Assembly (NCBI GenBank): GCA_948146395.1
Contig: OX411558.1
Span: 50,911,622-50,975,621 of the forward strand
Source of the DNA: Fragum whitleyi
Lineage: Eukaryota; Mollusca; Bivalvia; Cardiida; Cardiidae
DNA: 64,000 nt
Direction of reading: 5' to 3'
Made by a program: the position numbers and the translations under genes. This document shows positions 2,351 to 51,100 of this stretch, piece after piece; the stretch's first letter is position 1; every line of letters starts with the position of its first letter. A model generated the notes under the pieces. It was not told the DNA's origin. It made no database searches and was given only the letters and a program-made list of their open reading frames with translations.

Positions 2351-3631
2351 ATGGGAATAAGCTTAGCACAACACATGGCAAGAATCGGGGCCTTTGATCT
2401 TTGTCGAAGACCATACAAAGGTAAAAGAAATCAAAGCAAGGCATATAGTTCATACGTGAAGGGATCTAACATTCACCTTCGAACATTTTGTACGTGCATT
2501 GTTATCCTTGGAATACTACTGGCAATTAGAACAGGCCTAGAATTACATCATTCGTTTGTCTACGAGTGGTACCAGGAAGCAGAAAATAGTAGATACAATC
2601 TCAATGTCGACGATATACTCGGGGAAAAGTTTGGTATATTTGAGTCATACATCGAAAATAGATTGTTACTCTCTTCGGATGTCGAGCTAAATCCTGGACC
2701 GGTAGAAGGTAATGGAGTTGACCAGATATTGGAAGCGATCAAAAGTAGCGAGACACGAGTCCTAAACGAGATCTCGCTCGTTAAAGAGGATATAACAAGT
2801 CTTAAAAAAGATGTTATCAAAATAAAAGAAAATTGTGAAAAAGCAGACAAAGAAATCACTTTGATCAAAGAAACACAGTCTAATATGAAAGCAGAAATAA
2901 GGTCGAACAAATATGATGTGAATGTGGCTTTAGAGCAACAAGAACATCTCCAATTGGATGTTGAACATTTAAATGATATGATGGAACAAAAAGAAGCCGA
3001 AATAAATCTTATTAAAGCACACATGGATAAAATGGAGCGTTTCAGCAAACGGAATTCAATGAGAATATTTGGTTTAAGCACAACTTTTAATGAAAACAGG
3101 ACTTCCCTGGAGAACCAAATAGTGAATGAAGTATTAAAAGTTGCAAGTCCCGAAAATGATTGGAATAGATCTATTATAGAGAATGCATACAGAGTAAATG
3201 GAAGTGAAGGACCCTACATGACAATACTAACATTAAAAGATGAAGAATCAAAGTCGAAAGTTTTTGCGGGTCGGGATAGACTGAGAGAGAATAATATAAG
3301 GATAAGTGATGACCTCACAACGAGACAAAGAGATGAACTGAAAAGATTAAAAGAGCGAGGTCAAATAGGCTATTACAGAAAGGGAGAGTTACATGTTAGA
3401 GCACCGAAACCATTATCTGTGCAAAAAACAAGAGTGTTTAAAAAAAGTGTAAGAAGAATAAGTAAACCTGAATTCCAGGAAATACAAGATGAACAAAGAG
3501 AAGTAAGCGAAAACAAACATAATGATAATGATTCAGATATGTCAATCAACCCATATGAAATTTCGACAGACAATGAACAAGTTGTAGATGATCACGACAT
3601 TTGTGATATAAATAGGTCAGGATCGGCATAG
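2351..3631 (+). CDS. LINE ORF1 protein (2A motif, coiled coil, nucleic-acid-binding region)
   Basis: A 426-codon ORF1 of an APE-type non-LTR retrotransposon. The start is an ATG in purine context (AAAATGG). Residues 1-44 are basic; 45-61 form a hydrophobic, membrane-like segment; 110-117 are DVELNPGP, the signature of 2A peptides, so translation would release residues 1-116 and restart at P117. Residues about 125-225 are rich in K/E/L/I heptads (coiled coil). Residues about 235-345 contain an L1-ORF1p-like region ('RIFGL', 'NAYRVNG', 'TRQRDELKRL'), suggesting an RRM-like plus C-terminal RNA-chaperone domain. The tail is acidic. The stop is TAG followed by CAATTA, and ORF2 continues in the same frame. 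No frameshift or internal stop is seen, so the copy looks intact. Confidence 0.88.
   Translation: MGISLAQHMARIGAFDLCRRPYKGKRNQSKAYSSYVKGSNIHLRTFCTCIVILGILLAIRTGLELHHSFVYEWYQEAENSRYNLNVDDILGEKFGIFESYIENRLLLSSDVELNPGPVEGNGVDQILEAIKSSETRVLNEISLVKEDITSLKKDVIKIKENCEKADKEITLIKETQSNMKAEIRSNKYDVNVALEQQEHLQLDVEHLNDMMEQKEAEINLIKAHMDKMERFSKRNSMRIFGLSTTFNENRTSLENQIVNEVLKVASPENDWNRSIIENAYRVNGSEGPYMTILTLKDEESKSKVFAGRDRLRENNIRISDDLTTRQRDELKRLKERGQIGYYRKGELHVRAPKPLSVQKTRVFKKSVRRISKPEFQEIQDEQREVSENKHNDNDSDMSINPYEISTDNEQVVDDHDICDINRSGSA
2648..2701 (+). promoter_or_regulatory. 2A ribosome-skipping motif inside LINE ORF1
   Basis: Codons 100-117 end in DVELNPGP, matching the D(V/I)ExNPGP consensus of 2A recoding peptides, preceded by a leucine-rich run (RLLLSS) as is usual. 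Skipping would occur between G116 (codon 2696-2698) and P117 (2699-2701). 2A-like sequences are known in APE-type LINEs of several invertebrates, including molluscs, so the motif fits the element class. Activity is inferred, not shown. Confidence 0.88.
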
Positions 3632-3640
3632 CAATTAATA
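3626..3640 (+). promoter_or_regulatory. Leaky stop context UAG-CAA-UUA between LINE ORF1 and ORF2
   Basis: ORF1 ends GCA-TAG at 3629-3631; the next six bases are CAATTA. This fits the UAG-CARYYA readthrough consensus defined from tobamoviruses. ORF2 follows in the same frame (2351, 3632 and 3716 share one frame) with no other stop until 7093. The first in-frame ATG of ORF2 (about 3858) lies after the catalytic endonuclease Glu codon at 3758. Readthrough giving a 1580-residue fusion is therefore the simplest expression route. Confidence 0.8.
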
Positions 3641-6600
3641 CCCATCCAGGAATCAAACGTTAAAATCGTCGCATGGAACATCGAAGGCATTAAGACAAAA
3701 GCAAAGGATCTAGATGTGTTGCGCTTTATAAGAGAATTTGATATTGTTGCTCTATTAGAGACGTGGGAAGAACGTGTCGATGAAATAAAAAATCTTTTGA
3801 CAAACTTTTCATGTTTTCATCTTAGCGCTTCTAAACGATCCAAATGGGGTAGAGCGATGGGTGGTATGATTGTGTACGTCAAGAACTATCTAACACGATT
3901 TATTACACGAATGAATAGTGATTCTAAGTTAGGAATAAGCTTTAAAGTAAAAGGTGAATTATTTAATCTCAACAGGGACTGCATTATTTCATTCGTATAT
4001 ATCCCACCAGAAAAATCACCATTTTATGAAGATTTTATGAGTAGCGGAATAAAATTAATGGAAGAAGAATTCGTAGAATATGGTCTCCTTGAAGGGTTGC
4101 CGATAATAATAATGGGCGATCTTAATTCTAGAACAGCAAAGTATCAATCCAAAACGGTTATCGAAGAAAATGGCAATTTTGAAATTGACGAGGAAAGTTA
4201 TCCACGGCAGTCACTAGACACAAAGACCAATAAATTTGGAAAAGATCTTCTTGAGTTTTGCACTGTGCACAATGTGATAATTTGTAATGGTGCTATTCCT
4301 GATGACAATGATAACGGGAACTTTACCTACATGAGTTCAAATGGGGATAGTGTGATCGACTATATGCTATGTTCCGAGAATATAATCAACATAATTGATC
4401 ATTTGAGCGTGGGAATAAATACCGAATCATCACACTTCCCGATAATTTGCAAAGTTAGAAGTACATTGAGTTACAAAGAAAACAAACGTAGGAAGGTTGA
4501 TAAGATAATAAACAACAAAACAGTTAGATTTGAATTTAACTATGACAATGTAATACAATATAAACGTAACCTAACATTTTCATTTTCAGAACAATTTATA
4601 GCTTTCTTTTGTTCTAAGATTGACAATGTAGAAAATGACATCAGTGAAATCATAAACGATTTAGATCAATCTTTACTAAAGTGTGCAGATATATGTAGAA
4701 AAGAATCAAAATCACGTGTTAATTGCAACCCGAAATGGTTCGATTCAGCATGCCAACAATTAAAAAAAGACAAATATAGAGCTTTAAGACGGTACAGGAA
4801 CGTAAGTTCAACCCTTAATCTTGAACAATTTAAAAAATCAAAACGCGTCTTCAAAGCAGAATGTAACAAGAAAAAGCAGGCTCACCTCAAGCAATCACTT
4901 GATGAACTCATTACTTCTCATAATGATTCAAAGTCGTTTTGGAAACGTCTGAAGACTATGACAAAGAAAAGTCGACCTGATAACACTATAACTATGGAGG
5001 AATGGACGCGACATTTTGAACAACTGTTCAGTACAGGACAAAGCGTTACTAATAATACAACCAATGCAGATGAAACACAAAATGGTGAATTAAATGCACA
5101 TGTTGATCTAGATGATGTAAAGAATGAAATATTTAATGCAGATATTTCAAGTGAAGAAGTATTAAAAGCAATTAATGATCTAACCAATGGAAAAAGTGGA
5201 GGTATAAATGGAATTACGCCAGAATTCTTTAAATACGGTGGAGAGGTGCTGTTAAATATACTCGTTCGACTTTTCAATAGAATCTACAATACAGGAGAAT
5301 ACCCGACTGCTTGGACTATTGCAATAATCGTCCCCTTATATAAAAAAGGTAACACCAATGAACCCGAAAATTATCGAGGTATTTCGCTTCAAGACATTCT
5401 TAGTAAGATATATTCAAGTGTCCTAAACAGACGTCTAACCTTCTACATGAACATGTACAACATCACAAGTGAAGGTCAGGCAGGTTTTAAAGCGGGATAT
5501 TCAACTATAGTTAACGCCTTTATTTTAAATTCAGTAATATCCAAGGCTCTTAATAGACAGCATGGGAAAGCATATGTAGCATTCGTAGATTTCAAACAGG
5601 CATTCGATACGGTCAACAGGGAAAAATTATGGTCAGTTCTACAAAAAAATGCCATAGGTGGAAAATTATTTAGGTCAATCAAAAGTATGTACAAAATTGT
5701 CAAAGCAAGAGTACGATCGAACACGTTACTCTCAGAACCACTTACTTCGTACAACGGACTTAAGCAAGGCTGTAAGTTATCACCGGCCTTATTCCTACTT
5801 TACATTGATGAGCTAGCGCACGTGATTAATGAAAGTGGAGATCTCAGGGGAATACAATTATTTCCGGATATAGTTCAAGTATTAATACTCCTGTTTGCGG
5901 ACGATATAGCCTTAATTTCAGATACGATTCACGGACTACAAAAATTACTAGACAAACTATACAGATTTAGTGTGACAAGTGGACTAGTCGTTAATATATC
6001 AAAAACAAAGGTAGTTGTGTTTAAAAGGGGAGGTAATCAGTCAAGAAAAGAAATATGGTATTACGGACAAGAGAAGCTAGAAGTCATTCGCAAATTTAGT
6101 TATGTTGGACTATTATTCTCACAACAAAACTCGTTAAAGATAATGGCCTCCGAGCAAGCAATTAAAGGCAAAAAGGCATTAATTTCAATTTTGTCAAGTC
6201 TTTATGAATATGGGCAAATACCTGGCCATGTATTTTTCAAAATATTTAATACTAAAGTTTTACCAATCATATTATACGGGTCAGAGTTATGGGGCTGTAT
6301 GGACCATACGAGTGTTGATAGAGTACAATTATACGCTTGCCGGAGGTATATGTGCGCTAAGAAAACATCGCCAGTTGCAGCAGTACTCGGTGACTGTGGC
6401 CAATATCCGATACAAATTGAATATCAAAAACGATGTATAAAATACTGGTTAAAGGTGTTGAATATAGAAGAAAATAGATTGGTCCGAAAGTGTTATGAAA
6501 TGTTAAGGTGTTATGACCAATCAGGATGTATAAACTGGGTAACGCATGTTCGATCAATTATCCAAAAATGCGGATTTGGTTACATATGGGAGAGTCAGAC

Positions 6601-7093
6601 GGTCACAAATATAAATCTTTTTATCACGGAATTCGACCAGAGATTGAAAGACCAATACCTACAAGGATGGTCTGCTAATCTCATGGAAAATCAAAGACTT
6701 CAATGTTATAAATCATTCAAGACAAGTTTTCTTCATGAGCCCTATTTAGACATTTTGAATATAAGAAAATTTAGGAGATCGATGTCGAACTTTAGGTTTT
6801 CCTGCCATAATTTGAATATTGAAAAGGGTAGACATTTGAATATTCCAGTAGAAGAAAGACTATGTAAAATGTGTGGTTCAGATATAGAAAACGAATACCA
6901 TTTTCTTCTTAAATGCAGTGTTTTGGAAGACATAAGACAGAGATTCCTACCTAAGAAATTTGTGGACAACCCTTCACACCAAAAATTCAAAATTCTAATG
7001 TCTTCAAACAAAGAAAGTATTATAATCGCTGTCGCTTCATTTATTTACTATGCGAATATGAAGCGCACAGAAATGGTCGGAAATCAGGCATAA
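3632..7093 (+). CDS. LINE ORF2: APE endonuclease and reverse transcriptase
   Basis: 1153 codons read from the base after the ORF1 TAG. Numbering from Q1: the AP-endonuclease-like domain starts at 'KIVAWNIEG' (about 11); Glu43 in 'LLETW'; 'MGDLN' with Asp163 and Asn165; 'SVIDY'; and 'ESSHFP' with His268, where the usual SDH is SSH. The reverse transcriptase spans about 500-800: 'NGKSGGINGI', 'LYKKGN', 'NYRGISL', 'FVDFKQAFDTV', 'GLKQGCKLSP' and the catalytic 'FADDI' (F755). Near the C terminus a Cys1078-Cys1081-His1090-Cys1095 knuckle follows 'IEKGRHL'. There is no RNase H. This places it in the CR1/L2/RTE-like assemblage; the exact clade cannot be fixed by eye. The protein nicks target DNA and copies the element RNA (target-primed reverse transcription). 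It looks intact. Confidence 0.9.
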   Translation, partial: QLIPIQESNVKIVAWNIEGIKTKAKDLDVLRFIREFDIVALLETWEERVDEIKNLLTNFSCFHLSASKRSKWGRAMGGMIVYVKNYLTRFITRMNSDSKLGISFKVKGELFNLNRDCIISFVYIPPEKSPFYEDFMSSGIKLMEEEFVEYGLLEGLPIIIMGDLNSRTAKYQSKTVIEENGNFEIDEESYPRQSLDTKTNKFGKDLLEFCTVHNVIICNGAIPDDNDNGNFTYMSSNGDSVIDYMLCSENIINIIDHLSVGINTESSHFPIICKVRSTLSYKENKRRKVDKIINNKTVRFEFNYDNVIQYKRNLTFSFSEQFIAFFCSKIDNVENDISEIINDLDQSLLKCADICRKESKSRVNCNPKWFDSACQQLKKDKYRALRRYRNVSSTLNLEQFKKSKRVFKAECNKKKQAHLKQSLDELITSHNDSKSFWKRLKTMTKKSRPDNTITMEEWTRHFEQLFSTGQSVTNNTTNADETQNGELNAHVDLDDVKNEIFNADISSEEVLKAINDLTNGKSGGINGITPEFFKYGGEVLLNILVRLFNRIYNTGEYPTAWTIAIIVPLYKKGNTNEPENYRGISLQDILSKIYSSVLNRRLTFYMNMYNITSEGQAGFKAGYSTIVNAFILNSVISKALNRQHGKAYVAFVDFKQAFDTVNREKLWSVLQKNAIGGKLFRSIKSMYKIVKARVRSNTLLSEPLTSYNGLKQGCKLSPALFLLYIDELAHVINESGDLRGIQLFPDIVQVLILLFADDIALISDTIHGLQKLLDKLYRFSVTSGLVVNISKTKVVVFKRGGNQSRKEIWYYGQEKLEVIRKFSYVGLLFSQQNSLKIMASEQAIKGKKALISILSSLYEYGQIPGHVFFKIFNTKVLPIILYGSELWGCMDHTSVDRVQLYACRRYMCAKKTSPVAAVLGDCGQYPIQIEYQKRCIKYWLKVLNIEENRLVRKCYEMLRCYDQSGCINWVTHVRSIIQKCGFGYIWESQTVTNINLFITEFDQRLKDQYLQGWSANLMENQRLQCYKSFKTSFLHEPYLDILNIRKFRRSMSNFRFSCHNLNIEKGRHLNIPVEERLCKMCGSDIENEYHFLLKCSVLEDIRQRFLPKKFVDNPSHQKFKILMSSNKESIIIAVASFIYYANMKRTEMVGNQA

Positions 7094-8893: not shown

Positions 8894-9232
8894 CAGTAAT
8901 TGGACTTAATTTTATAACCGCTTGTAAGTTTTTACAAACTTTTAATTCACAAATTCAGTATTTCTTCTCTATTAACTTGTGGCTATTATAGTAATGATAA
9001 CTTAATAATTGTATTTGTTTATAGATGTCTACAAATAGTATTGTCTTGAAATTTAAACATTTCATAGCTTCGAGAGTCGGTCCTTTTATAAATCAAACCC
9101 CAATTCGCTCTTCAAATGTAAACCAATGGAACTGAAACAAGCGAAATCTTGAAATTGTAACGTAAACCTTTTTCTCAATAAGGCCTTTCGTTGTCAGTAC
9201 AGTGACTTTAAAATCATTATCTTTTCAGCACC

Positions 9233-10930
9233 ATGGCGAGTGGATCGCGATCCATTTCTAAAGGATCGGAGGAAGCCTTTCTCTACGAGTGTGACCCATG
9301 CAAGTATCAGGAAATAACATCAGAAGCAAAAGCGTATTGTACAGTTTGTACTGAATATTTATGTGAGAAATGCAAAATATCACATAAAGGGTCAAAATTG
9401 TCACGTGATCACAAACTGCTGAAAGGAAATGAAATGAAATCTGTTTCAATGACAACCAAATCTAATGAGACAATTTTATGTGATACACACAAATCGATGT
9501 GTATCAACACATATTGTAAAAACCATGATGACGTCATTTGCGGCACGTGCAAAATAACCGATCACATGAAATGCGCCACAACTGACGTAAGCGATCAGAA
9601 AAAGAACGTGAACATAGCAAAATCTATTGACAAAGTAACTAAATCTTTCATGGATTTAAAACACCATATGAAAAACTAAAAGAGACACGAAAAGCAGATA
9701 TAAATGAACTCAGGGCTCAACTCGGTAAATCCCTTGAAGATATGAGAAATATGCGTAAAGAGATCAATCAAGCTTTGGACAAATTAGAAAGAAAGTTTGA
9801 AAAAGAAATTAAGGAAATTGAAGCACGTATTAGAAGTGATATTGAAAATCACGTGACTATAGCCGAAGACGCTCTGCTTCAAATTTCGAATCAATTGAAA
9901 TATCTTGGAGATTGTAGAAAAACAAAAAATGACGACGTAAAGTTTGTTTTCATGAAAAGGGCTGAGAAAATCGTAGATAAATATGATCGCACTTTGTCAA
10001 CGGTTCGACAGACCATCCATCCAATCCAGATACAATTCCGAGCAAATGACGTCATAAGTGACGTCATACAACAACTTAATTGCATTGTCCAGAACTTTAG
10101 AAAGCCACAAACATCCTCAACATCCTCCCACAACAAGTGTACAAAGATCATCGTCTCTGTTACAGATGTCTGTCGTTGATAAGCGGGAGATTGATGTAGG
10201 TGTGGGACGTATACTTGACTGTACGTTTATGAAGAGTGGACATCTAGTACTGACATGTAGAGAGGAAGGGCTTATATTACTGGATGAAAGTTTTAAGGTC
10301 CAGTCTAAGTTATCCGTTGAGTCATCGAATGTAGCCGCCATCAATGAGAATGAAGTCGTTGTTACACAAGGTGATGATAAACTACTACGAGTACGACTGT
10401 TTCCAAAGATGGTTGTCGTGACAACAGTTAAGATGGATAGACAGTGTGATGGTGTAGACGCGTTTAATAATGAGATCTATGTGGTCTGTGATGATGGTGA
10501 TGCTTATGAGGAAGTACAGGTACTCAATATGGAAGGGAAGATACAGAGAAAGATTGGTGTCAACAATGCTGAATGTATACAAGATATGAAAGTAAGCCGA
10601 GATGGAAGTAAAATATTTGTATCTGATGTTGGTACTAACAAGGCCACGTGTCTGAATCAACATGGTCACGTGATCTACGAGTACTCAGATCCAGACTTAA
10701 AGAAACCACGCGGACTTTACGTGGACGAGGATGACACTCTATTAGTGTGTGGGCAGTACTCCAACAATATCCATATGGTAGGACGTGATGGTAGTAAAAT
10801 AAAGGTTTGGTTGACAAAGAAGGATGGTATGGAGTATCCATGTTGTATATCTTATAGACAAAAAGATGGATGTCTGGTTGTAGGGTTGTATGGTAAAAAC
10901 GCCCTTGCTTTTAACATCAAGTTGGAATAG
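9233..10930 (+). pseudogene. TRIM-like B-box / coiled-coil / beta-propeller gene, two frameshifts
   Basis: The start ATG sits in a strong context (CACCATGG) just after TCTTTTCAG, a possible 3' splice site of a 5' UTR intron. Frame A (9233-9679) encodes two B-box zinc fingers: a first with Cys pairs 'CDPC', 'CTVC', 'CEKC' and a second 'CDTH...CGTC'. There is no RING. The coiled coil ('KEINQALDKLERKFEKEIKE') continues one frame over (to about 10179). The beta-propeller/NHL-like C-terminal part ('GHLVLTC', 'GSKIFVSDVG', 'KPRGLYVDEDDTLLVCG') returns to the first frame and ends at 10930. Domain order matches TRIM2/3/56-like proteins (ubiquitin-ligase and innate-immune family). One indel lies near 9660-9680 and another between about 10060 and 10180. 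Either this is a recent pseudogene or the assembly has two indel errors; the otherwise clean frames favour a young event. Confidence 0.72.
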
Positions 10931-16771: not shown

Positions 16772-19700
16772 CTATGTTATGTTAGCATCCTTCTATGGAA
16801 TGTACAAGGTTTGAAGAATAAACTAACAGATAATGATTTTTTGACAACGTTAAGACAGTATGACTTTACTTTTTTCACAGAAACATGGGGCTCAAACATG
16901 AGCAATTTTAACGTAGAAGGATATGAATGTATAGCATGCCCGAGGCCTAAAACTAACAAAAGGGCCAGGCGAAATAGTGGTGGAATAGCGGTACTTTATA
17001 AGAGTACTCTTGTAAAAGGAGTAGAAGTGTCAAAAATAAATTGCAATGGTATAATGTGGTTAAAACTTAAAAAAAGTTTTTTCAATTTTGATAGAGACAA
17101 ATACATTTGTACGTGTTATATCCCCCCAGAAGAGTCTTCTGTATATAAAAATGTTAACTCAGTATTACATGACTATGATTTCTTTGAAACATTGAATTCT
17201 GATATAGGTTATTTTAGTTCGATCGGCGATATTATTTTGACAGGTGATTTCAACGCGAGGACGGGGAACTTGTCCGATTGTATACTTAATGAAGATTTGA
17301 ACAACTTTATCGATATACCCCTTAATACATACTCGGGGAATATACAGTCAAGACAGTCACGTGATCAAACAGTCAATGCGTAGGGTAGGAAGTTATTAAC
17401 CCTTTGCAAAAATAACGATTTATCAATTTGCAACGGTCGATTAGATCGCGGTGAGTTCACCTGTCATAATACTATCGGTACAAGACTAGGACAAAGTGTC
17501 GTAGACTATTTAATTGTAGAAAATATTAGCTATTCTGATATTATTTCAATGCAAATAGGGGAAATAACCGAATTTTCAGATCATAACTATATTGAATACC
17601 GGGTTAAATGCGGAAATGATTATTCGAAAGGTAACACATGTTTTCAATCCAATAATAAAGAAATCAAGAAGATAGTTTGGGACAGCTTAGATAGAGAACA
17701 AATGAATAATTTGCTTCTTGAATACAGTCCTAAATTCAAAAATGTAACCGATCGATTACATAACACAGATATTAATATCAACGAAAGTGTAGAAGCTTTT
17801 TCAAACTTAATTTACGAGTTATCTTATGCCATTAATGGCAAAACTATTTTCACAAGCGGGACAAAATTACGCAAAAAGTGTAACCCCTGGTTTAATGAAG
17901 AATGCAAACTTTACAAATCTAAGTTCCACGACGCCAGGAGACTTTATAAAAACTCGCCAAGCGAAACAAACAAAACAAATTTTCTTCTGCAGCGTACGCT
18001 TTATTAAAAACAGAAACGGAAAGCCAAATCAAGATATTTCACAAACGAAAAGATAAAATTAAATGAAATGTCTTCCAAAGATCCTAGAAATTTCTGGAAA
18101 TATATAAATAGCATCAAAAATAAAAACATATCCGATAAAAACGATATAAGTCTATCCGATTTCAAAACTTTTTTCGAGACGTTAAGTACGAACAAAAATC
18201 AAAGTACTGACAGAACCGATATCCAAAACCATGATATCAATGTTGATTACCTAGATCGCCCTTTCAGTGCAGAAGAGATATCTAACACCATTAGAACACT
18301 GAAGCGCAATAAAAGCGCAGATTTCACGGGTAATATAGCCGATTTTCTCATAGATGCTAATGATTTTATAACACCACACCTTGAGATTATTTTTAATAAA
18401 ATATTTGAAACTAGCAATTACCCTGAGTCATGGGGTAAAGGTATCATAAATCCTATATATAAGAAGGGTGACCCAAACGATCCTTCAAATTATCGAGGAA
18501 TAACATTGGTTAATGTTACTGGGAAACTTTTCTCCCTAATCCTACGCAATCGAATTAATAAATGGTGCGAGTCTCAGTCAGTTTTTGATGAAAACCAATT
18601 TGGATTTAGAGATAAGAGGAGCACAATGGATTGCGTATTTTTATTACATACAATAATCCAGAATGTGCTATCGAAAAAGCAAAAGCTATACTGTGCATTT
18701 GTAGACTATGAAAAAGCTTTTGATTCCGTGGACAAAAACATATTGCTAACCAAACTCATAAAAACAGGAATAAGTTCCAAAATGATAAAGATTATCAAGT
18801 CAATGTATAGCCAAGTAAAGGCTTGCGTTAGACATAGAAGAACGAATGTTCTCTCAGATTTTTTCGATGTATCAATAGGTCTTAAGCAAGGTGATCCTCT
18901 GTCAACGACATTATTTTTACTCCTCGTTAATGATATAAGCGAAAGCTTGAAAGACGATAATCAAAATAACTTAAATGAAGAACTCTTACCATTTTTTAAT
19001 CTACTTTTTGCTGATGATATAGCGCTATTCTCGACAGAACCCGATGCTTTACAGGTGAAATTAAACTGCTTAAACGAATATTCCAAAAGTAGTGGGCTGA
19101 AAATCAATGTTAACAAAACTAAAATTTGTATATTCGAGAAAAGAAAAAGTAACTCTAACTATACCTGGAAAATTGACAGTGAAGCTATCGAAATTGTCCC
19201 TTCCTTTTCTTACTTAGGTGTACTTTTCCATTACACGGGAAATATGATTCATTCCGTGAAAAACTTAATAGAAAGAGCAAATAAAGCCTATTATAGTATC
19301 CTAGCTTTATTTGACAGACTTAGCCTAGATTTTAAAACAAAACTAAATATTTTCGAAACGATGGTTATGCCGATCTTATTGTATAGTTCTGAAATTTGGG
19401 GAATATATGGTTACAAAGATATAGATAAAATTCAAATCAAGTTCTATAAATATTTACTCGGAGTGAAGAAACAAACCCCAAACTCTGCAGTGTTCGGGGA
19501 ACTTGGAAAATACCCACTTTCAATATTAGCAAAAGAGAGGGCAATTAAATATTATTTGAAAGTCATGAATAACCCGAATTCATCGATGAGCCATTTGTTT
19601 AAAACACAGATCGAAAAAAAAATACAAAAATTCCTGGGCTGAAAAGATCATTTATAATTTACAACATTTAGGTCTCAACACTTTAGTTTACAATTTCAAT

Positions 19701-20174
19701 CCCGAGATAAATTACTTCAGAATAATACAACAGCGCATTAAAGACCAATATTTACAATTATGGTCTAGCAATCTCAGGGAAAGCAATAAACTTGCCTTAT
19801 ATAGAAATTACAAAACAGAATTCAAATTGGAAAAATACTTAGAATTAAACATAAGCACCAAACTTTTAAATCAGTTTGCTAGATTTAGACTTAGTTCACA
19901 CGATCTCGAAATAGAAAAGGGTAGACATTTAGGCATTGATAGAGAAAATAGAAAATGTAAATTATGTAACCTCAATTCGCTAGAAACCGAGTATCATTTC
20001 TTGATGTGTTGCACAAAATATACAGAATTACGCAAAAAATATTGCATCAAACAGTCGTGGCCCAGCTTGAACAAATTTAACTCCTTAATGTCCACACAAA
20101 AAGAAAAACAACTTTACTCACTTATGAATTTCATATATCATGCAATGAAGATAAGAAAAGAAGTTTTATCTTAA
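16772..20174 (+). pseudogene. Second LINE, ORF2 (endonuclease + RT), decayed
   Basis: One frame opens at 16772, directly after a TGA at 16769. Endonuclease motifs in order: 'SILLWNVQG', 'FTETWG', 'CYIPPEESS', 'LTGDFNART', 'SVVDY', 'FSDHNY'. RT motifs: 'IYKKGDPNDPSNYRGIT', 'FVDYEKAFDSV', 'GLKQGDPLS', 'FADDIALFS'. The C-terminal 'EIEKGRHLGI' and Cys-knuckle ('CKLC...EYHFLMCC') match the first LINE in position and type, so both belong to one broad clade. Lesions: in-frame TAG at 17381-17383, in-frame TAA at 18005-18007, and a one-base frameshift in the A-run near 19614-19622, after which the frame resumes to 20174. No ORF1 is recognised. The copy is dead unless these are assembly errors. Confidence 0.87.
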
Positions 20175-21487: not shown

Positions 21488-21590
21488 TAAAACGATTTAA
21501 ATGTAATTAAGGATACATACGGACTAGCGCAATACGTTAACTTTATAAAGTGGATGGATTACGATACTTTATAATAAAATACGTAAAAGG

Positions 21591-22163
21591 ATGGCCCTTA
21601 GTAATTTACCGAACTTTCCGTCATTTGAGGTGGACGCGGATAAGTCAAATTGTGGAACAAGATGGGAGAAATGGGTTTCGAGGCTAGAAAACCTGTTTGT
21701 TGGATTAAATATTACGGAAGAGGCACAAAAGAGAGCTCTGTTACTTCACTATGCGGGTGAGAAAGTCTTTGATATATATGAAGCTCAAAAAGGCGACGAC
21801 GACGGCACGACTTACGATGGAGCGAAAGAGGTTTTGGACACATACTTCGCCCCACAAAAGAATGTCCAGATGGAAATTTTTACGTTTAGGTGTCATAAAC
21901 AACAGGAATACCAGAGTTTAGATGAATTTGTCATGGAATTAAGAACTCTTGCTAAAAACTGTGACTTTGAAAATGTGGATAAAGAAATATTACAGCAAGT
22001 TATTCAGAATTGTCGTTCTAATCAGTTACGGAGAAGGGCGTTAAGGCAACCCGACAAAGGTTTGCAAGATATTTTAACTTTAGGCAGAATGTTAGAACTT
22101 TCCGAAAAACAAGCCTCAGAAATTGAAACAGAGAACTCCAGTCAACTCTGTAAATCGAGGTAA
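21591..22163 (+). CDS. gag: Ty3/Gypsy Gag (capsid part)
   Basis: 190 codons from ATG at 21591 ('MALSNLPNFPSF'). It has the capsid-like helical pattern of Mag-type Gag: 'RWEKWVSRLENLF', 'KRALLLHYAGEKVFDIYE', a central 'FTFRCHKQQEYQSLDEFV', and 'LRTLAKNC...ILQQVIQNC'. The nucleocapsid zinc knuckles are not in this frame but at the start of the pol frame, so making a complete Gag also needs the frame change. The stop TAA at 22161-22163 is reached as AGG-TAA-G; a +1 shift there enters the pol frame. The protein assembles the particle that packages element RNA. Confidence 0.88.
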   Translation: MALSNLPNFPSFEVDADKSNCGTRWEKWVSRLENLFVGLNITEEAQKRALLLHYAGEKVFDIYEAQKGDDDGTTYDGAKEVLDTYFAPQKNVQMEIFTFRCHKQQEYQSLDEFVMELRTLAKNCDFENVDKEILQQVIQNCRSNQLRRRALRQPDKGLQDILTLGRMLELSEKQASEIETENSSQLCKSR

Positions 22164-25100
22164 GGGAAAATTTCGCAAGCCTCTCCCGAAAAGCAAGATG
22201 ACACCAAATACCAAAAAAGGACATAGGACAACGCCTAAACATAAGTCACGTGATGATGCCGCAAATCTATGTAGGAATTGTGGGTACGAATTTCCGCACA
22301 CGAAAGCGCCTTGTCCAGCTAAAGGGAAAACCTGTAACCTATGTAAAAGGATGAATCACTTTGCTCGCTGCTGCAGGAATCGTGGGAAAAAAGTAAATGA
22401 GGTGACAGACCCAGAACTACAGTCAAGTTCGGAAGACGAGTTCAGTTACAACATATCAGTTAACAGTGTTTGTAATACCAAGTCACCCAAAACAGAAATA
22501 ATACTTAACAATACTCAGATTAAGGCGACTATTGACACAGGATCGAGTGTTAATATAATCGATGAAAGAGCCTTTGCTACTCTAGGAAAGCCTAAGTTGC
22601 AAACAAGACACTTACCGAAACTAATTCCTTACGGTGGTGGACAAACTCTCAAAGTTCTCGGAAGTTGCAAACTCACGATAGAGAAAAATAATAAAATGAT
22701 GGTTGAGAAATTTTTCTTAGTTAAAGGAAACTATGGCACTCTTTTGGGTTACGAGACGGCTAGTGCTCTCGGAGTTGTGAAAATTGTGCAACCTATCAAT
22801 ACGTCTGACTCTATCGAAACAAAATATCCTGGCATATACAAAGGTATAGGAAGGTTAAAAGGACAAACAGTTAAACTACACATCAATAAAGATGTTAAAC
22901 CGGTAGCCCAGAAAAATCGAAGGACACCCTTTCACTTGAGGCACAAAGTTGAAAAGGAAATTAAGAAGCTCTTGGATGACGACATTATTGAAGAAGTCAA
23001 AAATCAATCGACACCATGGGTCTCAGCAATTGTAACCCCGCCGAAGAAAAATGGAGATGTTCGCATTTGCATTGACATGCGCGAGGCAAACAAGGCTATT
23101 GAAAGAGAAAGACACCCCATGCCGACGATCGACGAGCTAATTCACGATCTGAATGGAGCTATGGTCTTCAGTAAGCTAGATCTTGCTTCGGGATACAATC
23201 AGTTGGTCTTAGACGAAGAATCGAGACCGATTACTACATTCATTACGCATCTTGGATTATTCAGATACAAACGACTGAATTTTGGTACAAATTCAGCTTC
23301 TGAAGTATTTCAGAAAACAATAAGTACGGTGATACAGGGGATAAACGGTGCGAAAAATATCTCGGATGACATTCTGGTGTACGGAAAATCGAAAAAGGAA
23401 CATGACATTGCACTTGATATGGTATTCAAGGCATTACATAACAGTGGTCTAACGTTAAACAAAAAGAAGTGTGATTTCGACAAATCAAACGTTACGTTCT
23501 TCGGAGTAGTCTTTGGAGGTTCCGGAATATCTCCAGACCCAATCAAAGTGGAGGCAATCAAACAAATGGAAAGACCCTTAAATGTGTCAGAATTACGTAG
23601 TTTCTTGGGCATGACAGCTTATTGCTCTAGATTTATTAAGAATTACGCTTCAGTTACGGAACCCTTACGGAAGCTAACGCGTAAAGAGGTCGAATGGTCT
23701 TGGGAAGAAAGTCAGCAAAATGCTTTCGAAAAACTGAAAAACGAACTTTCCAGTGAAACGGTTATCACATACTTTGATCCAAATCGGAACATAGAACTCG
23801 TTACGGACGCATCGCCAGTGGGACTATCTGGTATATTAACTCAAGAAGGCAAAGTCGTAGCATACGCTAGTCGCGCGTTAACTCAAACCGAGACGAGATA
23901 CAGCCAAACAGGAAGAGAAGCATTTGCAATTGTATGGGCATGTGAACACTTCAGCATGTATCTAAAAGGTGCGCCATGTTTTACAGTTGTCACCGATCAT
24001 AAGCCATTGACGACTATTTGGACAAAGAAACAACCGCCGTTACGCATTGAACGTTGGGGATTACGTTTACAACCGCTTAAACTAAAAATTGAATATAGGC
24101 CTGGAAAAGACAATCCATCAGATTACATTTCACGACACCCTTTGAAAATCGATCAGGAAACTCGAAATCTAGCCGAGGAATATGTTGCATTTGTTTGCGA
24201 GGAATCGGTCCCAAATGCGATGACTATGGACGAAATCAAAAATGCGTCAATCAATGACCAAACAATACAAAAAGCTATTGAATACACGAAATCTGGGAAA
24301 TGGTACGAATTAAAGACACTCGAGGTCAACGATGACATTAATTTGGAGGAACTACTTTCTTTGAGAAATGTTAAAGACGAACTTACTGTTCATTGTGACA
24401 CTGTTCTTTTGAAAAACGACAAAATCGTTATGCCAAAGTCGTTACGATCAAAAGCAATCAAATTAGGCCACGAGGGACATCAGGGATTATCGCGAACAAA
24501 AAGTTTTATACGATCAAAGGTATGGTTTCCGAATCTCAACGCTGAAATCGAGCACGCGATTCAGGGATGTATGGCGTGTCAGGCTAATACAAAGGAGTCG
24601 AAGCCGAGGGAGCCGCTTAGAATGTCTGAAATGCCTTCTGGTCCATGGCAAAACCTCAGTGCCGACTTCTGTGGTCCGTTAGATACGGGGGAATATCTGT
24701 TGGTGATAATAGATGAATATTCGCGATACCCAGTGGTGGAAATTATTAAATCAGTTTCTGCTAATTCTGTGATTCCGGTAATAGATAAGGTTTTATCTGT
24801 GTTTGGTGTGCCGGTAGTGATGAAAACGGATAACGGTAGTCCGTTCAACAGCTATCAGTTTAAAAGTTATGCTAAGAAAATGGGTTTTGTGCACAGGAAA
24901 ATTACACCATTGTGGCCAAGGGCAAATGCTCAGGCAGAGTCATTTAATAAGCCTTTAATTAAAAGTGTGAGATCTGCAAAGTTAGAAGGAAAAAAGTGGA
25001 AAGAAGAAATGTTCAGATTTCTCAGGCAATACAGAGCAACACCTCATACTGTAACAGGTTACTCTCCTTTTCGTTTATTATTTCAGCGTGAGGCAAGAAC

Positions 25101-25575
25101 TCGCTTGCCACAGGCAGTTGTAGCTAACGAAAAAAGGGTTAACATTGATGAACACGCAAGGACAAATGACGAAAAAAGCAAATCCTATAGCAAATTATAT
25201 CAAGATAACAAAAATCGAGCGATCGATAAGAATATCGCACTTGGAGATAAAGTCTTGCTCTGTAATGGCGATAAATCTAAAATGAATACAAGTTTCAAAC
25301 CAGTTCCATATAAGGTCATAAATAAAAAGGGTCCGATGATTACTGTTGAAAATAATGGTCATAGGGTAACTAGAAATTCTTCATTTATGAAAAAGGTTTC
25401 TGATAAACTCTCTGGTCCGAAACATTTCACGGTGGAGGAGAATGACTTAATGGAAGACGAAGGATTTGACAACGTTATAGATACTGGAACTGATAAAATC
25501 TTGAATGAAAGGCCAATTCGAAATCGACGTTCGCCAAAGTATTTAGACGATTACGTGTGGAAAGGAAAACGTTAA
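22123..25575 (+). CDS. pol: Ty3/Gypsy NC-protease-RT-RNaseH-integrase polyprotein
   Basis: Open from at least 22123 (overlapping gag by 41 bp, +1 relative frame); 1150 codons counted from there, probably entered by frameshift, not by its own start. Two zinc knuckles: C50-C53-H59-C64 and C71-C74-H79-C83/84. Aspartic protease: D138 in 'IDTGSS'. RT: 'VFSKLDLASGYNQ' (D353) and 'ISDDILVYG' (D415-D416); Ile-Ser in place of Tyr-x before DD is usual in the Mag/SURL lineage. RNase H: D562 in 'VTDASPVG'. Integrase: H783-H786-C816-C819 zinc site, then D848, D903, E939 with the classic 35-residue spacing. No chromodomain and no env follow. No internal stops, so it may be functional; it copies RNA to DNA and integrates it. 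Confidence 0.95.
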   Translation: MKQRTPVNSVNRGKGKFRKPLPKSKMTPNTKKGHRTTPKHKSRDDAANLCRNCGYEFPHTKAPCPAKGKTCNLCKRMNHFARCCRNRGKKVNEVTDPELQSSSEDEFSYNISVNSVCNTKSPKTEIILNNTQIKATIDTGSSVNIIDERAFATLGKPKLQTRHLPKLIPYGGGQTLKVLGSCKLTIEKNNKMMVEKFFLVKGNYGTLLGYETASALGVVKIVQPINTSDSIETKYPGIYKGIGRLKGQTVKLHINKDVKPVAQKNRRTPFHLRHKVEKEIKKLLDDDIIEEVKNQSTPWVSAIVTPPKKNGDVRICIDMREANKAIERERHPMPTIDELIHDLNGAMVFSKLDLASGYNQLVLDEESRPITTFITHLGLFRYKRLNFGTNSASEVFQKTISTVIQGINGAKNISDDILVYGKSKKEHDIALDMVFKALHNSGLTLNKKKCDFDKSNVTFFGVVFGGSGISPDPIKVEAIKQMERPLNVSELRSFLGMTAYCSRFIKNYASVTEPLRKLTRKEVEWSWEESQQNAFEKLKNELSSETVITYFDPNRNIELVTDASPVGLSGILTQEGKVVAYASRALTQTETRYSQTGREAFAIVWACEHFSMYLKGAPCFTVVTDHKPLTTIWTKKQPPLRIERWGLRLQPLKLKIEYRPGKDNPSDYISRHPLKIDQETRNLAEEYVAFVCEESVPNAMTMDEIKNASINDQTIQKAIEYTKSGKWYELKTLEVNDDINLEELLSLRNVKDELTVHCDTVLLKNDKIVMPKSLRSKAIKLGHEGHQGLSRTKSFIRSKVWFPNLNAEIEHAIQGCMACQANTKESKPREPLRMSEMPSGPWQNLSADFCGPLDTGEYLLVIIDEYSRYPVVEIIKSVSANSVIPVIDKVLSVFGVPVVMKTDNGSPFNSYQFKSYAKKMGFVHRKITPLWPRANAQAESFNKPLIKSVRSAKLEGKKWKEEMFRFLRQYRATPHTVTGYSPFRLLFQREARTRLPQAVVANEKRVNIDEHARTNDEKSKSYSKLYQDNKNRAIDKNIALGDKVLLCNGDKSKMNTSFKPVPYKVINKKGPMITVENNGHRVTRNSSFMKKVSDKLSGPKHFTVEENDLMEDEGFDNVIDTGTDKILNERPIRNRRSPKYLDDYVWKGKR
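22156..22164 (+). promoter_or_regulatory. Candidate +1 frameshift site (TCG-AGG-TAA-G)
   Basis: The gag frame reads TCG AGG TAA; pol continues as AAG after skipping the T. A slowly decoded stop codon in the A site is the known driver of +1 shifting in several systems. The actual slip position within the 41-bp overlap is inferred; a one-base indel is the alternative. Confidence 0.4.
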
Positions 25576-42650: not shown

Positions 42651-44075
42651 AGCTCCACTGGCCGAAGGCCAGCGAGCTATTGTCATGGCGGGGTGTCCGT
42701 CGTGCGTCCGTGCGTCCGTCCGTGCGTGCGTGCGTAAACTTTTCTTAAAACATCTTCTCCTCCTAAAGCAATAGGTGGATTTTGATGAAACTTGGCCAGA
42801 ATGTTCCTTTGGTGACCCTCTTCTAAAGTTGTTCAAGAAATTTGGATTGACCCCCAAATATGGGCGTGGCAGGGCGGGGCTTATTTTGAGCCCGAAATCT
42901 TTGAAGGACATCTCCTCCTGAACCATTGGGCCAATTGTAATGAAACTTTACCAGAATGTTCCTTGGATGACCCTCTTTTAAAGTTGTTCAAGAAATTTGG
43001 ATTGACCCCCAAATAAGGGCGTGGCAGGGCGGGGCTTATTTTGAGCCCGAAATCTTTGAAGGACATCTCCTCCTGAACCATTGGGCCAATTGTAATGAAA
43101 CTTTACCAGAATGTTCCTTGGATAACCCTCTTTTAAAGTTGTTCAAGAAATTTGGATTGACCCCCAAATATGGGCGTGGCAGGGCGGGGCTTATTTTGAG
43201 CCCGAAATCTTTGAAGGACATCTCCTCCTGAACCATTGGGCCAATTTTAATGAAACTTTACCAGAATGTTCCTTGGATGACCCTCTTTTAAAGTTGTTCA
43301 AGAAATTTGGATTGACCCCCAAATATGGGCGTGGCAGGGCGGGGCTTATTTTGAGCCCGAAATCTTTGAAGGACATCTCCTCCTGAACCATTGGGCCAAT
43401 TTTAATGAAACTTTACCAAAATGTTCCTTGGATGACCCTCTTTTATAGTTGTTCAAGGAATTTGGATTGACCCCCAAATATGGGCGTGGCAGGGCGGGGC
43501 TTATTTTGAGCCCGAAATCTTTGAAGGACATCTCCTCCTGAACTATTGGGCCAATTGTAATGAAACTTTACCAGAATGTTCCTTTGATAATCAGACCCTC
43601 TTTTAAAGTTGTTCAAGAAATTTGGATTGACCCCCAAATATGGGCGTGGCATGGTGGGGCTTATTTTGAGCCCAAAATCTTTGAACGACATCTCCTGAAC
43701 CATTGGGCTGATTATAATGAAACTTTATCAGAATATTCCTTGGGTGACCCTCTCCTTAATTTGTTCAAGAAATTTGAATTGCCCCCCACCCACCCCCCAA
43801 CCCCCAAAAAGCGGCGTGGCTGGTTGGGGCTTATTTTGAGCCCGAAATCCTTGAACGACGCCTCCTTCTGAACCATTGGGCCAATTTCAATGAAAATTTA
43901 CCAGAATATTCCTTGGATGACGCACTTTGATAGTTGATCAAGAAATTTGGAATGACCCCCAAAAAATGGGTGTGGCAGGGTGGGGCTTTATCCGAATGTT
44001 CCTTGAATGACCCTTTTCAAAAATTGTTTGGGAAATTTTTATTTGCCCATAAACATGGGACTGGCAGGGCAGGCT
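42651..44075 (+). mobile_element. Tandem-core element with 155-bp unit (~8 copies)
   Basis: Left hairpin 42651-42678 (AGCTC...GGCC-gaa-GGCC...GAGCT) preceded by TTTTT. Then comes a GTGCGTCC minisatellite and about eight units of 155 bp, each with 'TGAACCATTGGGCCAATTGT', 'ACCCTCTTTTAAAGTTGTTC' and 'GGGCGTGGCAGGGCGGGGCT'; the last units are more degenerate. The overlapping minus-strand frames are repeat artefacts. The right end near GGCTTGTTTTTT is not sharply defined. The first unit resembles the first unit of the 46897 element. Confidence 0.85.
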
Positions 44076-46896: not shown

Positions 46897-48136
46897 AGCT
46901 CAACTGAGCACGAAGTGCTCAAGGTGAGCTATTGTGATCGTAGAATGTCCGTCGTCAGTCGTGCGTCGTCCACAATTTCTTTAAACATCTTCTCCTCCTA
47001 AACCAGTGGGCCAATCTTGATGAAACTTGGCAGGGATGTTCCTTGGGTCAAGCTCTACCAAAGTTGTTCAAATAATTGAAATCCGCCCTTAACTTTCCCT
47101 TTACCCTTAACAAAAAGGGTGAAAATATGAAAATCTTTAAAAATCTTCTCTGAAACCAGAAGGCAGACAGCTTACATATTTGCTATTTAGCATTATCTAG
47201 TGGACCTCTACGAAGTTTGTTCATATCAAGACCCTGGGGTCATATTTGGGCTTTGCCCAGGCCCAACCCTTTTTACATAGAATCAAATAGCAAAAATCTT
47301 TAAAAATCTTCTTCTCTGAAACCAGATGGCAGACAGCTTTCATATTTGGTATGTAGCATCACCTTGTGGGCCTCTACAAAGTTTGTTCATATCAAGACCC
47401 TTGGGTCATATTTGGGCTTTGCATGGGTGCATCCCTTTATCTCTTATGAGCACGAAGGATAAAAAAATGAAAATCTTCAAAAATCTTCTTCTATGAAACC
47501 AGAAGGCAGACAGCTTTCATATTTGGTTAGTAGCATCATCTAGTAGACCTCTACCAAGTTTGTTCATATCAACACCCTAGGATCATATTTGGGCTCCACC
47601 CGGACGCAACCCTTTTTACATAGAATCAAAGAGAGAAAATCTTTTAAAATCTCCTTTAATCAAAACCAGAGGGCACACTGCTTTCATTTTTGGTATGTAG
47701 CATTATCTAGTGGGCCCCTACCAAGTTTGTTCATATCAAGATCCTTGGGTTATATTTGGGCTCCACCCGGGCGCATCCCATTCAGCTCATCTGAGCACAA
47801 TGGGTGAAAAAAGGAAAACCTTCAAAAATCTTTTTCTTTGAAACCAGATGGCTGACAGCTTTCGTATTTAGTATGTAGCATTATCTTATGGACCTCTTCC
47901 AAGTTTGTTCATATCAAGACCCTGGGGTCAAATTTGGGGTCCACCTAGGTGCATCCCTTTTTACATAGAATCATAGAGCAAAAAGGCATATCTGTCTTGC
48001 TCTACGCTGAAAACGTACCATGGAATCGATTTAAGGCAATTATCTTCTTTTTGACATCTGCCTTTCCAATTAATGTGATGTCTCAGGGGTCAAAGAGACT
48101 CAGGTGAGCGATCTAGGACCATCTTGGTCCTCTTGT
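46897..48136 (+). mobile_element. Non-autonomous hairpin-ended element, ~160-185-bp cores
   Basis: The left end after TTTTT is a 34-nt hairpin (AGCTC ... GAGCAC-gaa-GTGCTC ... GAGCT). The core repeats carry 'CAGACAGCTTTCATATTTG' at about 47164, 47329, 47506, 47664 and 47848. The right end is GAGCGATCT, hairpin AGGACC/GGTCCT, then CTTGT. It abuts the splice-acceptor-like sequence before the Helentron ORF. It has no coding capacity and resembles Helentron-associated (HINE/pearl-like) elements. Confidence 0.72.
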
Positions 48137-48159
48137 CATTTTCTATTTTCAGTTTGAAT

Positions 48160-51100
48160 ATGCCTCGCAAGAAGAGCTGGAGAAGAAGTAAAGCAAGAAG
48201 AGATGCTCTGGAGAGATGCACAGCTGATCTGGGTGTCTTTGAACTATCAGATGGGGGCCCATCCCACCCTTTACCTGCATCTGTTTTGGATGAAACAGAT
48301 GTAAGGCCATCTGTGTCTATAGAGGGCGTCTTTGGAATATCAGATGGGGGACTTGCCCACCCACAAAAACCATCTGTGTCTATAGAGGGCGTCTTTGGAA
48401 TATCAGATGGGGGACTTGCCCACCCACAAAAACCATCTGTGTCTGGAATTTGTTCTGAAACTGTTCTTGATACTGTTCATGAAACTTTTTGTGATACTGG
48501 AGATGATAAACCTACTGACTCTTTTGCTGATTCTAGACCTAGTGCTAGTGATGATACTGTTCCTGTTACCCATGTTACTGTTGAAGATAAAGACTTAAAC
48601 ACAATGATTTTTGGAACATTTCATCAAGGTAATCAAATGTTTGATTCATCCTCACGAAGCTTTCAATGTACAGCCAATGCCTTATGCTCGTTGGTATACA
48701 CAGACCTGAGACAATTTCAATCATCTCAATGTCTTGACAATGTTCTGATAGAAGGAGATAGATTACATAGAAGAATAGTGAGTAGTCTGAAAGCAAGGAA
48801 TGAGTTTCAAAGTTTGCTTTTGAATTTAGAGGAGATTCCAGATTCAGTAACTGTTTTTGATAGAACTATTTCTATTGTGAAAGGAAATATTGTATCTGGT
48901 GTATTTATTCAGAATACTACCAACATCCACTTACCATCACTTCACTATTCTCTTAATGAGACTTTCAAAACAACTTCTTATCTTTTATTTATTATTGGTT
49001 CAGTTTGTTCTGCAATTTTCAGAAAGGATGGTAAATATTGCATTTTTGATTCTCATTCACATGGTACTGATGGATTGTCAACTGATGACGGAAAATCATT
49101 ATTAGCTTCCTTTAGTTCATTGGATGATTTAGTTCTGTTCATGTATGCACTATATCAGAGTATGAACATCAATCTAAGTGAACAATTTGACATGCTGCCG
49201 ATCAAATTTGTTATAAGAAAATTTCCTGAATCTGATTCAACGGAGAATGATATTGAATCTATGGTTTGTTCACCTGAGAATCAATCTATATCTTTGATTG
49301 AGAGTTACTTTAAGGACCAATCAGTAAGACAAAAGCGCAAACAAGAAGTTGATAAGTTAGATTATGAAACTGTACATGAATGTAAAAGACTAAAAAGAAG
49401 AGAATATATGAGAAATTATAAAAGAGAACAGCGTTTAGATAGTAAAAAAAAGCTGAAAGAATGTTTAATGACGAAAGAATCTATGAAGAAAATTAGACAG
49501 GATCCAAAGAGACAAGGAAAGGAACGTAGTATGACAAATATTTCAATGAAAAAAGCACGACAAGATCCAGAAAGACAAATTACAGAACGTAGTATGACCA
49601 ATATTTCAATGAAAAAAGTACGAAAAGATCCAGAAAGAAAAATCATAGAACGGAACATGACCAATATTTCAAAGAAGAAAGCAAGACAAAATCCAGAAAG
49701 ACAAGTCAAAGAACGGATCATGACAAATTTATCAAAGAAGAAAGCAAGGCAAAATTCAGAAAGACAAGTTAAGGAACGGAATATGACTATTATCTCGATG
49801 AAGAAAGCAAGACAAAATCCTGAAAGACAAGTCAAAGAAAGGATCATGACTAATATATCGAAGAAGAAAGCAAGACAAAATTCAGAAAGACAAGTTAAGG
49901 AACAGAATATGACTAACATTTCGATGAAGAAAGTAAGACAAAATCCTGAAAGGCAAGTCATAGAAAGGCTAATGACAAAGATCGCCAAGCAAAAAGTTAG
50001 AAAAAATGAAGAAAGAAACAAGAAAGACAGAATATTAACAATGAAATCTATGCACAAGTGCCGCTCTAGTAAATTATACAAAGACGCAGAAAGGCTTAAA
50101 AAACAAAATAAACGTGCATCAAGATCTTATTCAAATAAAGAAAACGAAAGAAATAAGGATAAACGCCAATGTTTGAGATCTAATTTAGATTATAGGATGA
50201 AAGAAAAGTGCAACAAAAGTTCAAAACGACATGGTATTGATATAGGAGATTGTGTTGAAAAGTTCCAGAAAAATATTTCAAAGGGTCCTGTTTATGTTTG
50301 TTCATGCTGTAACCAAACATGGTTTAAACATTCTGTTGTATCATTTGAAAAAATAAAATCAAAATGCACTTCTGATGCAGCTGAAAGGTTTTCTACTGGC
50401 TACATCTCTGTTGATGGCTGCGAATGGCTGTGTAAAACTTGTTATGAAAAAATTAAACTTAACAAAGTTCCACCAATGTCTGTTTATAACAAGAATGAAT
50501 TCCCTGTACGACCAATTGAACTCAATTTACATCAGCTAGAGGAGAGGTTAGTGTCTTTGAGAATTCCATTTATGCAGATAAGAGAATTACCAAGAGGAGG
50601 TCAATTGTCTGTAAAAGGAAATGTTGTTAATGTTCCTGTGGATATTCAGCCTGTCATACATAGCTTACCTAGGACATTAGATAGTCACTATACAATACCT
50701 GTGAAGCTAAAGAAAAAACTTTCATACAATAAATGTGATTTCACAGAAAACATCAGACCTCTGCATGTTTTAAGTGCTCTTCATTGGCTGGTGAAGCATA
50801 GTGTGCTGTATAAAGAATCTGGCATTAAAATAGATGATGAATGGATACAATCAATCACTTCAGATTGTAGTGATACAGTAAAGGAATTTTTTGGTACTGC
50901 CATTGATGGTGAAAATAATGAAGAATTAGATTGTGGTGATGATGTGAATTATGACTCTGATCAATTCAGTGAGGTTGATGAGACTGAAAAGGTTATTGGT
51001 AATAGTGATACTTTGCTGGATGTTGCGGATCCTACGAAAGACAATGTTTATACTTTTGCTCCAGGTGAAGGTCAGACACCACTCAGTCTTTATCAAGATC

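Follow-up and report, generated by a model that had tools for sequence, protein, structure and literature searches.

The stretch of DNA analyzed here, 64,000 nucleotides from the bivalve Fragum whitleyi (hereafter the window), carries a LINE whose two open reading frames, ORF1 and ORF2, share one reading frame. A single frame runs from the ATG at 2351 to the TAA at 7091, and its sole in-frame interruption is a TAG at 3629-3631. The features of this element, followed by a second LINE, are:

2351..2698, + strand: ORF1 leader (MGIS...RIGAF), ending at the 2A glycine, with a hydrophobic segment at about 2471-2527
2678..2701, + strand: 2A (StopGo) motif DVELNPGP, with a predicted skip between G116 and P117
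2699..3628, + strand: post-2A ORF1p, with a coiled coil and a LINE-1-ORF1p-like region, based on homologues and a profile match to 2ykp/2yko
3629..3631, + strand: in-frame TAG, putative readthrough stop, based on the sequence and on relatives
3632..3637, + strand: CAATTA, preceded by A before the TAG and matching the type I CARYYA context as defined in PMC3542737
3632..7090, + strand: ORF2, with an APE-type endonuclease (Pfam 3671-4378) and a reverse transcriptase (5345-6067)
6863-6916, + strand: C-terminal Cys/His motif of ORF2, recognized by eye
7091..7093, + strand: ORF2 stop TAA, followed by a TAG codon, as read in the sequence
16772..20174, + strand: broken LINE without upstream ORF1, belonging to a second group in which copies from the genome have in-frame stop junctions

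The ORF1 frame is open from 2273 and, from the ATG at 2351 to its end at 3628, encodes 426 residues. ORF2 (1,153 residues) follows in the same frame. The first in-frame ATG downstream of the TAG is found 228 nt on, at 3857 (ORF2 residue 76), beyond the invariant endonuclease Glu at residue 43; hence, no ATG precedes this Glu in ORF2. These data confirm two statements of a preliminary description of this DNA, namely that ORF1 and ORF2 are co-linear in frame across a single TAG followed by CAATTA, and that ORF2 lacks an ATG ahead of its catalytic Glu. ORF2 gives Pfam matches to RVT_1 (6e-33) and Exo_endo_phos (6e-11), and its best relatives of solved structure are LINE-1 ORF2p. With an APE-like endonuclease, a reverse transcriptase and no integrase match, the element is an APE-type LINE. 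Pfam returned for ORF1 just coiled-coil-type noise under the cut-offs. An ORF1 profile (A2) matched the LINE-1 ORF1p structures 2ykp and 2yko (human) at 8e-7. Relatives of ORF1 were found in Ruditapes and Dreissena, and a RIG motif lies close to the ORF1 start in 9 of 9 ORF1 homologues. Some genomic copies are 5'-truncated, two 99% copies matching the query from window positions 3520 and 3570 onward only.

Several other elements are present in the window. Two tandem arrays, with units of 156 and 155 bp, occupy 427-1500, just upstream of the LINE, and 42785-43988. Overlapping open frames at 9212-10930, the first of which has a B-box zinc finger, probably derive from a host gene of the TRIM type that has introns or breaks. 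At 21549-25575, an LTR-type gag (PNMA-like) and a pol (reverse transcriptase, RNase H, integrase) overlap in different frames, so that frameshifting rather than readthrough would be needed there. Finally, a 2,469-residue open frame at 48079-55488, with Helitron_like_N, DUF6570 and PIF1 helicase matches, corresponds to a Helitron-type transposon; it contains 63 bp tandem repeats and, by eye, an endonuclease-like C-terminal tail.

At the junction of the two ORFs, the window reads A-TAG-CAATTA. On the two strands of the window, CARYYA follows 5 of the 1,603 TAG triplets and CAATTA follows 2. Among the 40 listed stops that end open frames of at least 100 codons, the CARYYA context is found at TAG 3629 alone. 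TAG-CARYYA is rare in the window, yet a lone case is little proof. In the genome of the same animal, the window family has three copies (about 99% identical), all with TAG CAATTA, two of them truncated inside ORF1.

Relatives of the element were collected from two sources. The first is the 1.22-Gb assembly of the animal's own genome, where an endonuclease query scored 137 matches among 3,655 candidates. It includes a region (C2:99942173-100100757 of G000) with ten near-identical LINE endonuclease matches, about 17-20 kb apart, near a contig end. The second source is a search with an ORF2 profile, in which public bacterial MAGs and assemblies of symbionts yielded 16 loci; these are probably host or other eukaryotic DNA, and nine of them were inspected. 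Three of them span the ORF1/ORF2 boundary: L001 (Alviniconcha symbiont bin), L004 (Bathymodiolus symbiont assembly) and L003 (bin Cli_8). In all three, an ORF1-like frame and ORF2 are in the same frame with exactly one stop, a TAG, between them, and ORF2 ends with TAA. The likeness of L001 ORF1 to LINE-1 ORF1p is weak (E 0.06), and L004 ORF1 shows no sequence likeness to it. The seven closest ORF2 proteins (943-1,181 aa) all lack ORF1 within the same predicted protein. Two scans of viral contigs revealed no relative of the element, and a plasmid search gave one distant match. In total, 93 junctions were read, 90 from the 137 scored matches of the own genome plus L001, L003 and L004. They form 37 clusters at 75% identity over 150 nt; these clusters are related by descent, and some (e.g., L031, L071, L073, L101) represent decayed copies from larger families.

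The 2A-type leader is widespread among these relatives. D[VI]ExNPGP follows a hydrophobic leader in 13 of the 15 families with a long ORF1 (it is absent from L087 and L004) and occurs in 9 of 9 ORF1 homologues. The pairing of a 2A motif with the stop junction is not peculiar to the element of the window. LINEs with 2A-type ORF1 leaders were reportedly described by Odon in 2013, a study cited in PMC4981915, and the element studied here likewise places D[VI]ExNPGP between an N-terminal hydrophobic leader and ORF1p. For LINEs with such leaders, in-frame readthrough of the ORF1 stop is not known to have been reported. A 2A sequence that doubles as a signal sequence is documented for sea urchin NLR genes in the text of PMC4981915.

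The position of ORF1 relative to ORF2 was determined by tblastn in the 37 clusters. A detectable ORF1 is present in 30 of them; it is in frame with ORF2 across one stop in 24 and lies in a different frame in the other 6. In the remaining 7 clusters, ORF1 was not detected. Each of the 6 other-frame clusters has fewer than 50 open codons ahead of the stop, and these clusters look broken. At the 54 loci with at least 150 open codons before the stop, ORF1 is in frame in 51 cases, gives no match in 3 and is never in another frame. One copy, L031, carries the 3' motif described below with no stop before it and has its ORF1 out of frame; it is a broken copy. Cases contradicting the preliminary description, that is, full-length relatives with a sense codon at this site or with ORF2 in another frame, were sought: the 54 long-ORF1 loci contain none of the latter kind, and the only stop-less copy with the motif is L031. 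In the relatives, a single same-frame stop is kept, and the exceptions are broken copies.

This conservation bears on a rival explanation, in which the TAG would be a decay mutation in a once-fused ORF1-ORF2 frame. Many copies in the genome are broken, as such an explanation would have it, and L031 has no stop. However, the two 99% copies share the same TAG, and a stop is found at the same site in many distant families between long frames, for example with at least 400 codons before it and more than 1,100 after it. A decay mutation, already contradicted by a stop kept across distant families, was rejected, and we give it next to no credence.

The frame also bears on termination followed by reinitiation at or near the junction, maybe at a non-AUG codon, which would yield a separate ORF2 protein. 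PMC5972666 describes coupling between stop and restart for SART1, gives it as a proposal for L1 and notes that its calicivirus version tolerates non-AUG codons. A conserved element at a constant distance from the stop, such as that presented below, would also suit this mechanism. Yet reinitiation needs no shared frame, and no locus among the 54 has its ORF1 in another one. Moreover, no start codon is conserved 3' of the stop. An in-frame ATG precedes the first endonuclease motif in 5 of the 31 clusters where this motif was found and is missing in the other 26; in L004, about 90 open codons separate the stop from the endonuclease match, again without ATG. Reinitiation could account at best for the fixed-distance signal, and we regard it as unlikely.

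In contrast, readthrough of the stop accounts for the in-frame ORF2, for the absence of ATG in most clusters, for the kept stop and its mostly TAG identity and for the signal at a fixed distance. The 24 clusters picked by ORF1 frame have TAG in 21 cases and TAA in 3, and the 27 clusters picked by the 3' motif have 22 TAG, 3 TAA and 2 TGA. In the latter set, the base after TAG is G in 20 of 22 clusters, and TAA (3 clusters) is followed by T or C. In the 17 families whose ORF2 end was also read, TAG is the junction stop in 13 and the stop of ORF2 in 3 (Fisher p 0.0016); given the common descent of the families, the clusters do not count as independent trials, and this value is a guide. TAA is usually the tightest stop, and its occurrence in three clusters is a point against readthrough, as are the five clusters with an ATG ahead of the endonuclease motif and the stop-less L031.

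The 3' signal was recognized as GGYC located exactly 6 nt past the stop (position +10) in 80 of 93 loci and 27 of 37 clusters; the longer GGYCRARGY is found in 59 loci. Since the 27-cluster set was picked by GGYC itself, the invariance of +10 to +13, of the Gly codon (GGY, 27/27) and of the Arg codon (CGN, 14/14) in this set is circular, and the counts were therefore repeated on the 24 clusters picked by ORF1 frame alone. GGYC is at +10 in 23 of these and GGYCRARGY in 17, the sole cluster without GGYC at +10 being the window family. Information content reaches 1.06 to 2.0 bits at +10, +11, +13, +15 and +17 to +19, and 0.54 to 0.86 bits at +12, +14 and +16. Elsewhere between -8 and +30, the stop and the motif excepted, values are 1.03 bits at +4, 0.94 at position 28 and at most 0.59 at all others. 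L004 has no GGYC at +10. L062 reads TAG-CAAAAC followed by the motif, which is thus compatible with a CA start.

In frame, the motif encodes Gly-[Gln/Arg]-x, with a biased choice of codons. Gly is encoded by GGY in 23 of 23 cases (GGY represents 59% of Gly codons downstream), Arg by CGN in 12 of 12 (AGR represents 59% of Arg codons downstream) and Gln by CAA in 11 of 11 (67% downstream). This bias suggests a constraint acting on the RNA, and the fixed 6-nt distance would tie the motif to termination. In the 303 kb of these loci, GGYCRARGYY occurs at 70 sites. At 62 of them, near-identical copies included, the spacing from a preceding stop is exactly 6 nt (49 TAG, 12 TAA, 1 TGA); the 8 others are L031 and seven sites away from the junction. 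At the stop that ends ORF2, no GGYC is found at +10 in any of 17 families, the single site flagged by the script being GGAC. In the family of L106 and L103, the junction reads TGA-GGTGTA-GGCCATGGCC; the motif is kept with a UGA stop and about 41 codons separate the stop from the endonuclease match.

The sole consensus structure predicted for 25 own-genome clusters is a hairpin, with a stem of three base pairs capped by a loop of four bases. Column shuffles gave an equally good structure in 0 of 100 cases for segments from +4 to +40, +60 and +90, and in 1 of 100 for the 10-mer alone, the 5' arm being part of the selection. The three pairs form in 24, 27 and 23 of the 27 motif clusters; all three together are not possible in four of them (L055, L058, L001 and L003). 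The hairpin shows no two-sided covariation, and a covariation scan of column pairs gave nothing convincing. A search for a downstream partner of the motif or of its loop, in seven segments from +20 to +120, showed no convincing enrichment (lowest value: 25 of 200 shuffles reach the observed one), and Rfam gave no match for 5 loci at E 0.5. GGYCRARGYY may be recognized by its sequence just as well as through a structure.

These data also bear on a removal or recoding of the stop in the RNA, either by A-to-I editing of UAG or by use of TAG|G as a 3' splice site. Two points favor this explanation: an amber stop is known to be edited in another system, and TAG|G resembles a 3' splice site. However, TAA and TGA are found at the same site, no conserved pyrimidine tract is present upstream of the stop, and the consensus fold of the 25 own-genome clusters has no long duplex within 90 nt. 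Splicing and editing were rejected on these three grounds; recoding of the RNA is in our view highly improbable.

A stop junction also exists in the second LINE group, that of the broken element at 16772..20174. There, 150 matches were scored among 2,395 candidates and 20 short junction pieces were taken. In 18 of them, a C-terminal ORF1 domain, recognized by eye, is in frame before one stop, and the stop lies 6-9 codons ahead of the endonuclease match. Leaving out of the column counts L112, which has no ORF1, and L115, which duplicates the L114 junction, 18 distinct junctions remain, 16 with TAG and 2 with TGA. GGYC at +10 is found in 0 of the 20 pieces, a point which, like its absence from L004, weighs against the proposed mechanism. 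Downstream of the stop, the sequence is rich in purines and shows no fold in common.

The hexamer of the window must be considered in this context. According to the preliminary description, ORF2 is made by stop readthrough in a tobamovirus-type context. The idea of readthrough is strengthened by an in-frame junction kept across distant families. The hexamer, on the other hand, is not supported as the conserved device: TAG with CARYYA is found in 3 of 93 loci, the three near-identical copies of the window family, and most relatives have the other 3' signal. In a tree of the N-terminal region of ORF2 (29 rows; end branches with a median of 0.79 changes per residue), the window family is placed, together with P0001, a 55% identical protein from another record, among motif-bearing families, and the motif-bearing L003 falls in the outer group, with a midpoint root and 8 of 26 inner branches open. 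Read most simply, both the stop junction and, within the group, GGYCRARGYY are old; the window lineage would have lost the latter and now has CAATTA. On this tree, one stimulator seems to have been exchanged for the other in the window lineage.

Overall, we consider it very probable that this APE-type LINE makes ORF2 by programmed stop-codon readthrough, as a minority ORF1p-EN-RT fusion. Frame, stop identity, motif, spacing and conservation are established by comparison. In the proposed mechanism, the ribosome would start at the ORF1 AUG and make the hydrophobic leader, which would be released at 2A. It would then continue through ORF1p, and most ribosomes would terminate at the in-frame UAG. 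A minority would insert an amino acid at UAG and go on, yielding the fusion of ORF1p with the endonuclease and the reverse transcriptase. The stimulator would be A-UAG-CAA-UUA, a type I context, in the window family. Most related families would instead use the compact RNA element GGYCRARGYY, exactly 6 nt past the stop and usually after UAG-G, which could fold into the small hairpin described above at the edge of the mRNA channel of the ribosome.

With somewhat less confidence, we extend this proposal to a superfamily of animal LINEs, which would probably express reverse transcriptase by programmed readthrough via a hitherto undescribed cis-signal, stop-N6-GGYCRARGYY, replaceable by a tobamovirus-type CARYYA or by a purine-rich context. 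Together with the 2A leader, one AUG would then give the leader, ORF1p and the ORF1p-EN-RT fusion, and the ratio of reverse transcriptase to ORF1p would be set by termination efficiency, as in gag-pol. Among the papers listed by full-text searches of an open-licence library, no title or start of abstract reports readthrough of a LINE ORF1 stop. Translation of ORF2 from the RNA of two-ORF LINEs is understood for few elements, and a selectively kept in-frame stop with a signal of about 10 nt would add readthrough, in parallel to retroviral gag-pol. About two dozen or more naturally occurring variants (TAG, TAA and TGA; three 3' contexts) would be available for dissecting stop bypass by the animal ribosome, and the signal could serve to find host genes sharing a GGYCRARGYY-type element.

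Several known systems can be compared with the junction described here. SART1 and LINE-1 are likewise two-ORF LINEs that need a translational device for ORF2 (PMC5972666). Their ORF2 has its own AUG, whereas here it is in frame and, in most clusters, without ATG before the endonuclease motif. In the LTR retrotransposon Tca2 of Candida, gag and pol are split by a stop with a possible 3' pseudoknot, as outlined in PMC2194720; unlike the LINE studied here, Tca2 is an LTR element and its stop is UGA.

Known readthrough signals are classified in PMC3542737 as type I (UAG-CARYYA), type II and type III (UAG-G with a 3' structure). For type I, the very string of the window, A-UAG-CAA-UUA, is tabulated there for tobamoviruses, and in these and other viruses a replicative enzyme is encoded in frame downstream, as in the element of the window. 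CARYYA is also active in a mammalian reporter, with about 15% readthrough in the OPRL1 context, as given in PMC4132726. However, the carrier here is a LINE, not a virus, and the putative type I context is seen in one LINE family (three loci). Type III, found in gammaretroviral gag-pol and in Tombusviridae, resembles the majority of the related LINE families, which likewise combine UAG-G with a compact 3' element, and, as in gag-pol, the product of the LINE would fuse a nucleic-acid-binding protein to reverse transcriptase (PMC3542737, PMC5009743). The LINE element, about 10 nt long, begins 6 nt past the stop vs. a spacer of 8 nt in the gammaretroviral accounts; it has no downstream pairing partner found within 120 nt, and UAA and UGA versions exist. 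Finally, the table of PMC3542737 lists benyviruses under UAG-CAA-UUA as well as UAG-GGG, which parallels the change of stimulator proposed for the window lineage.
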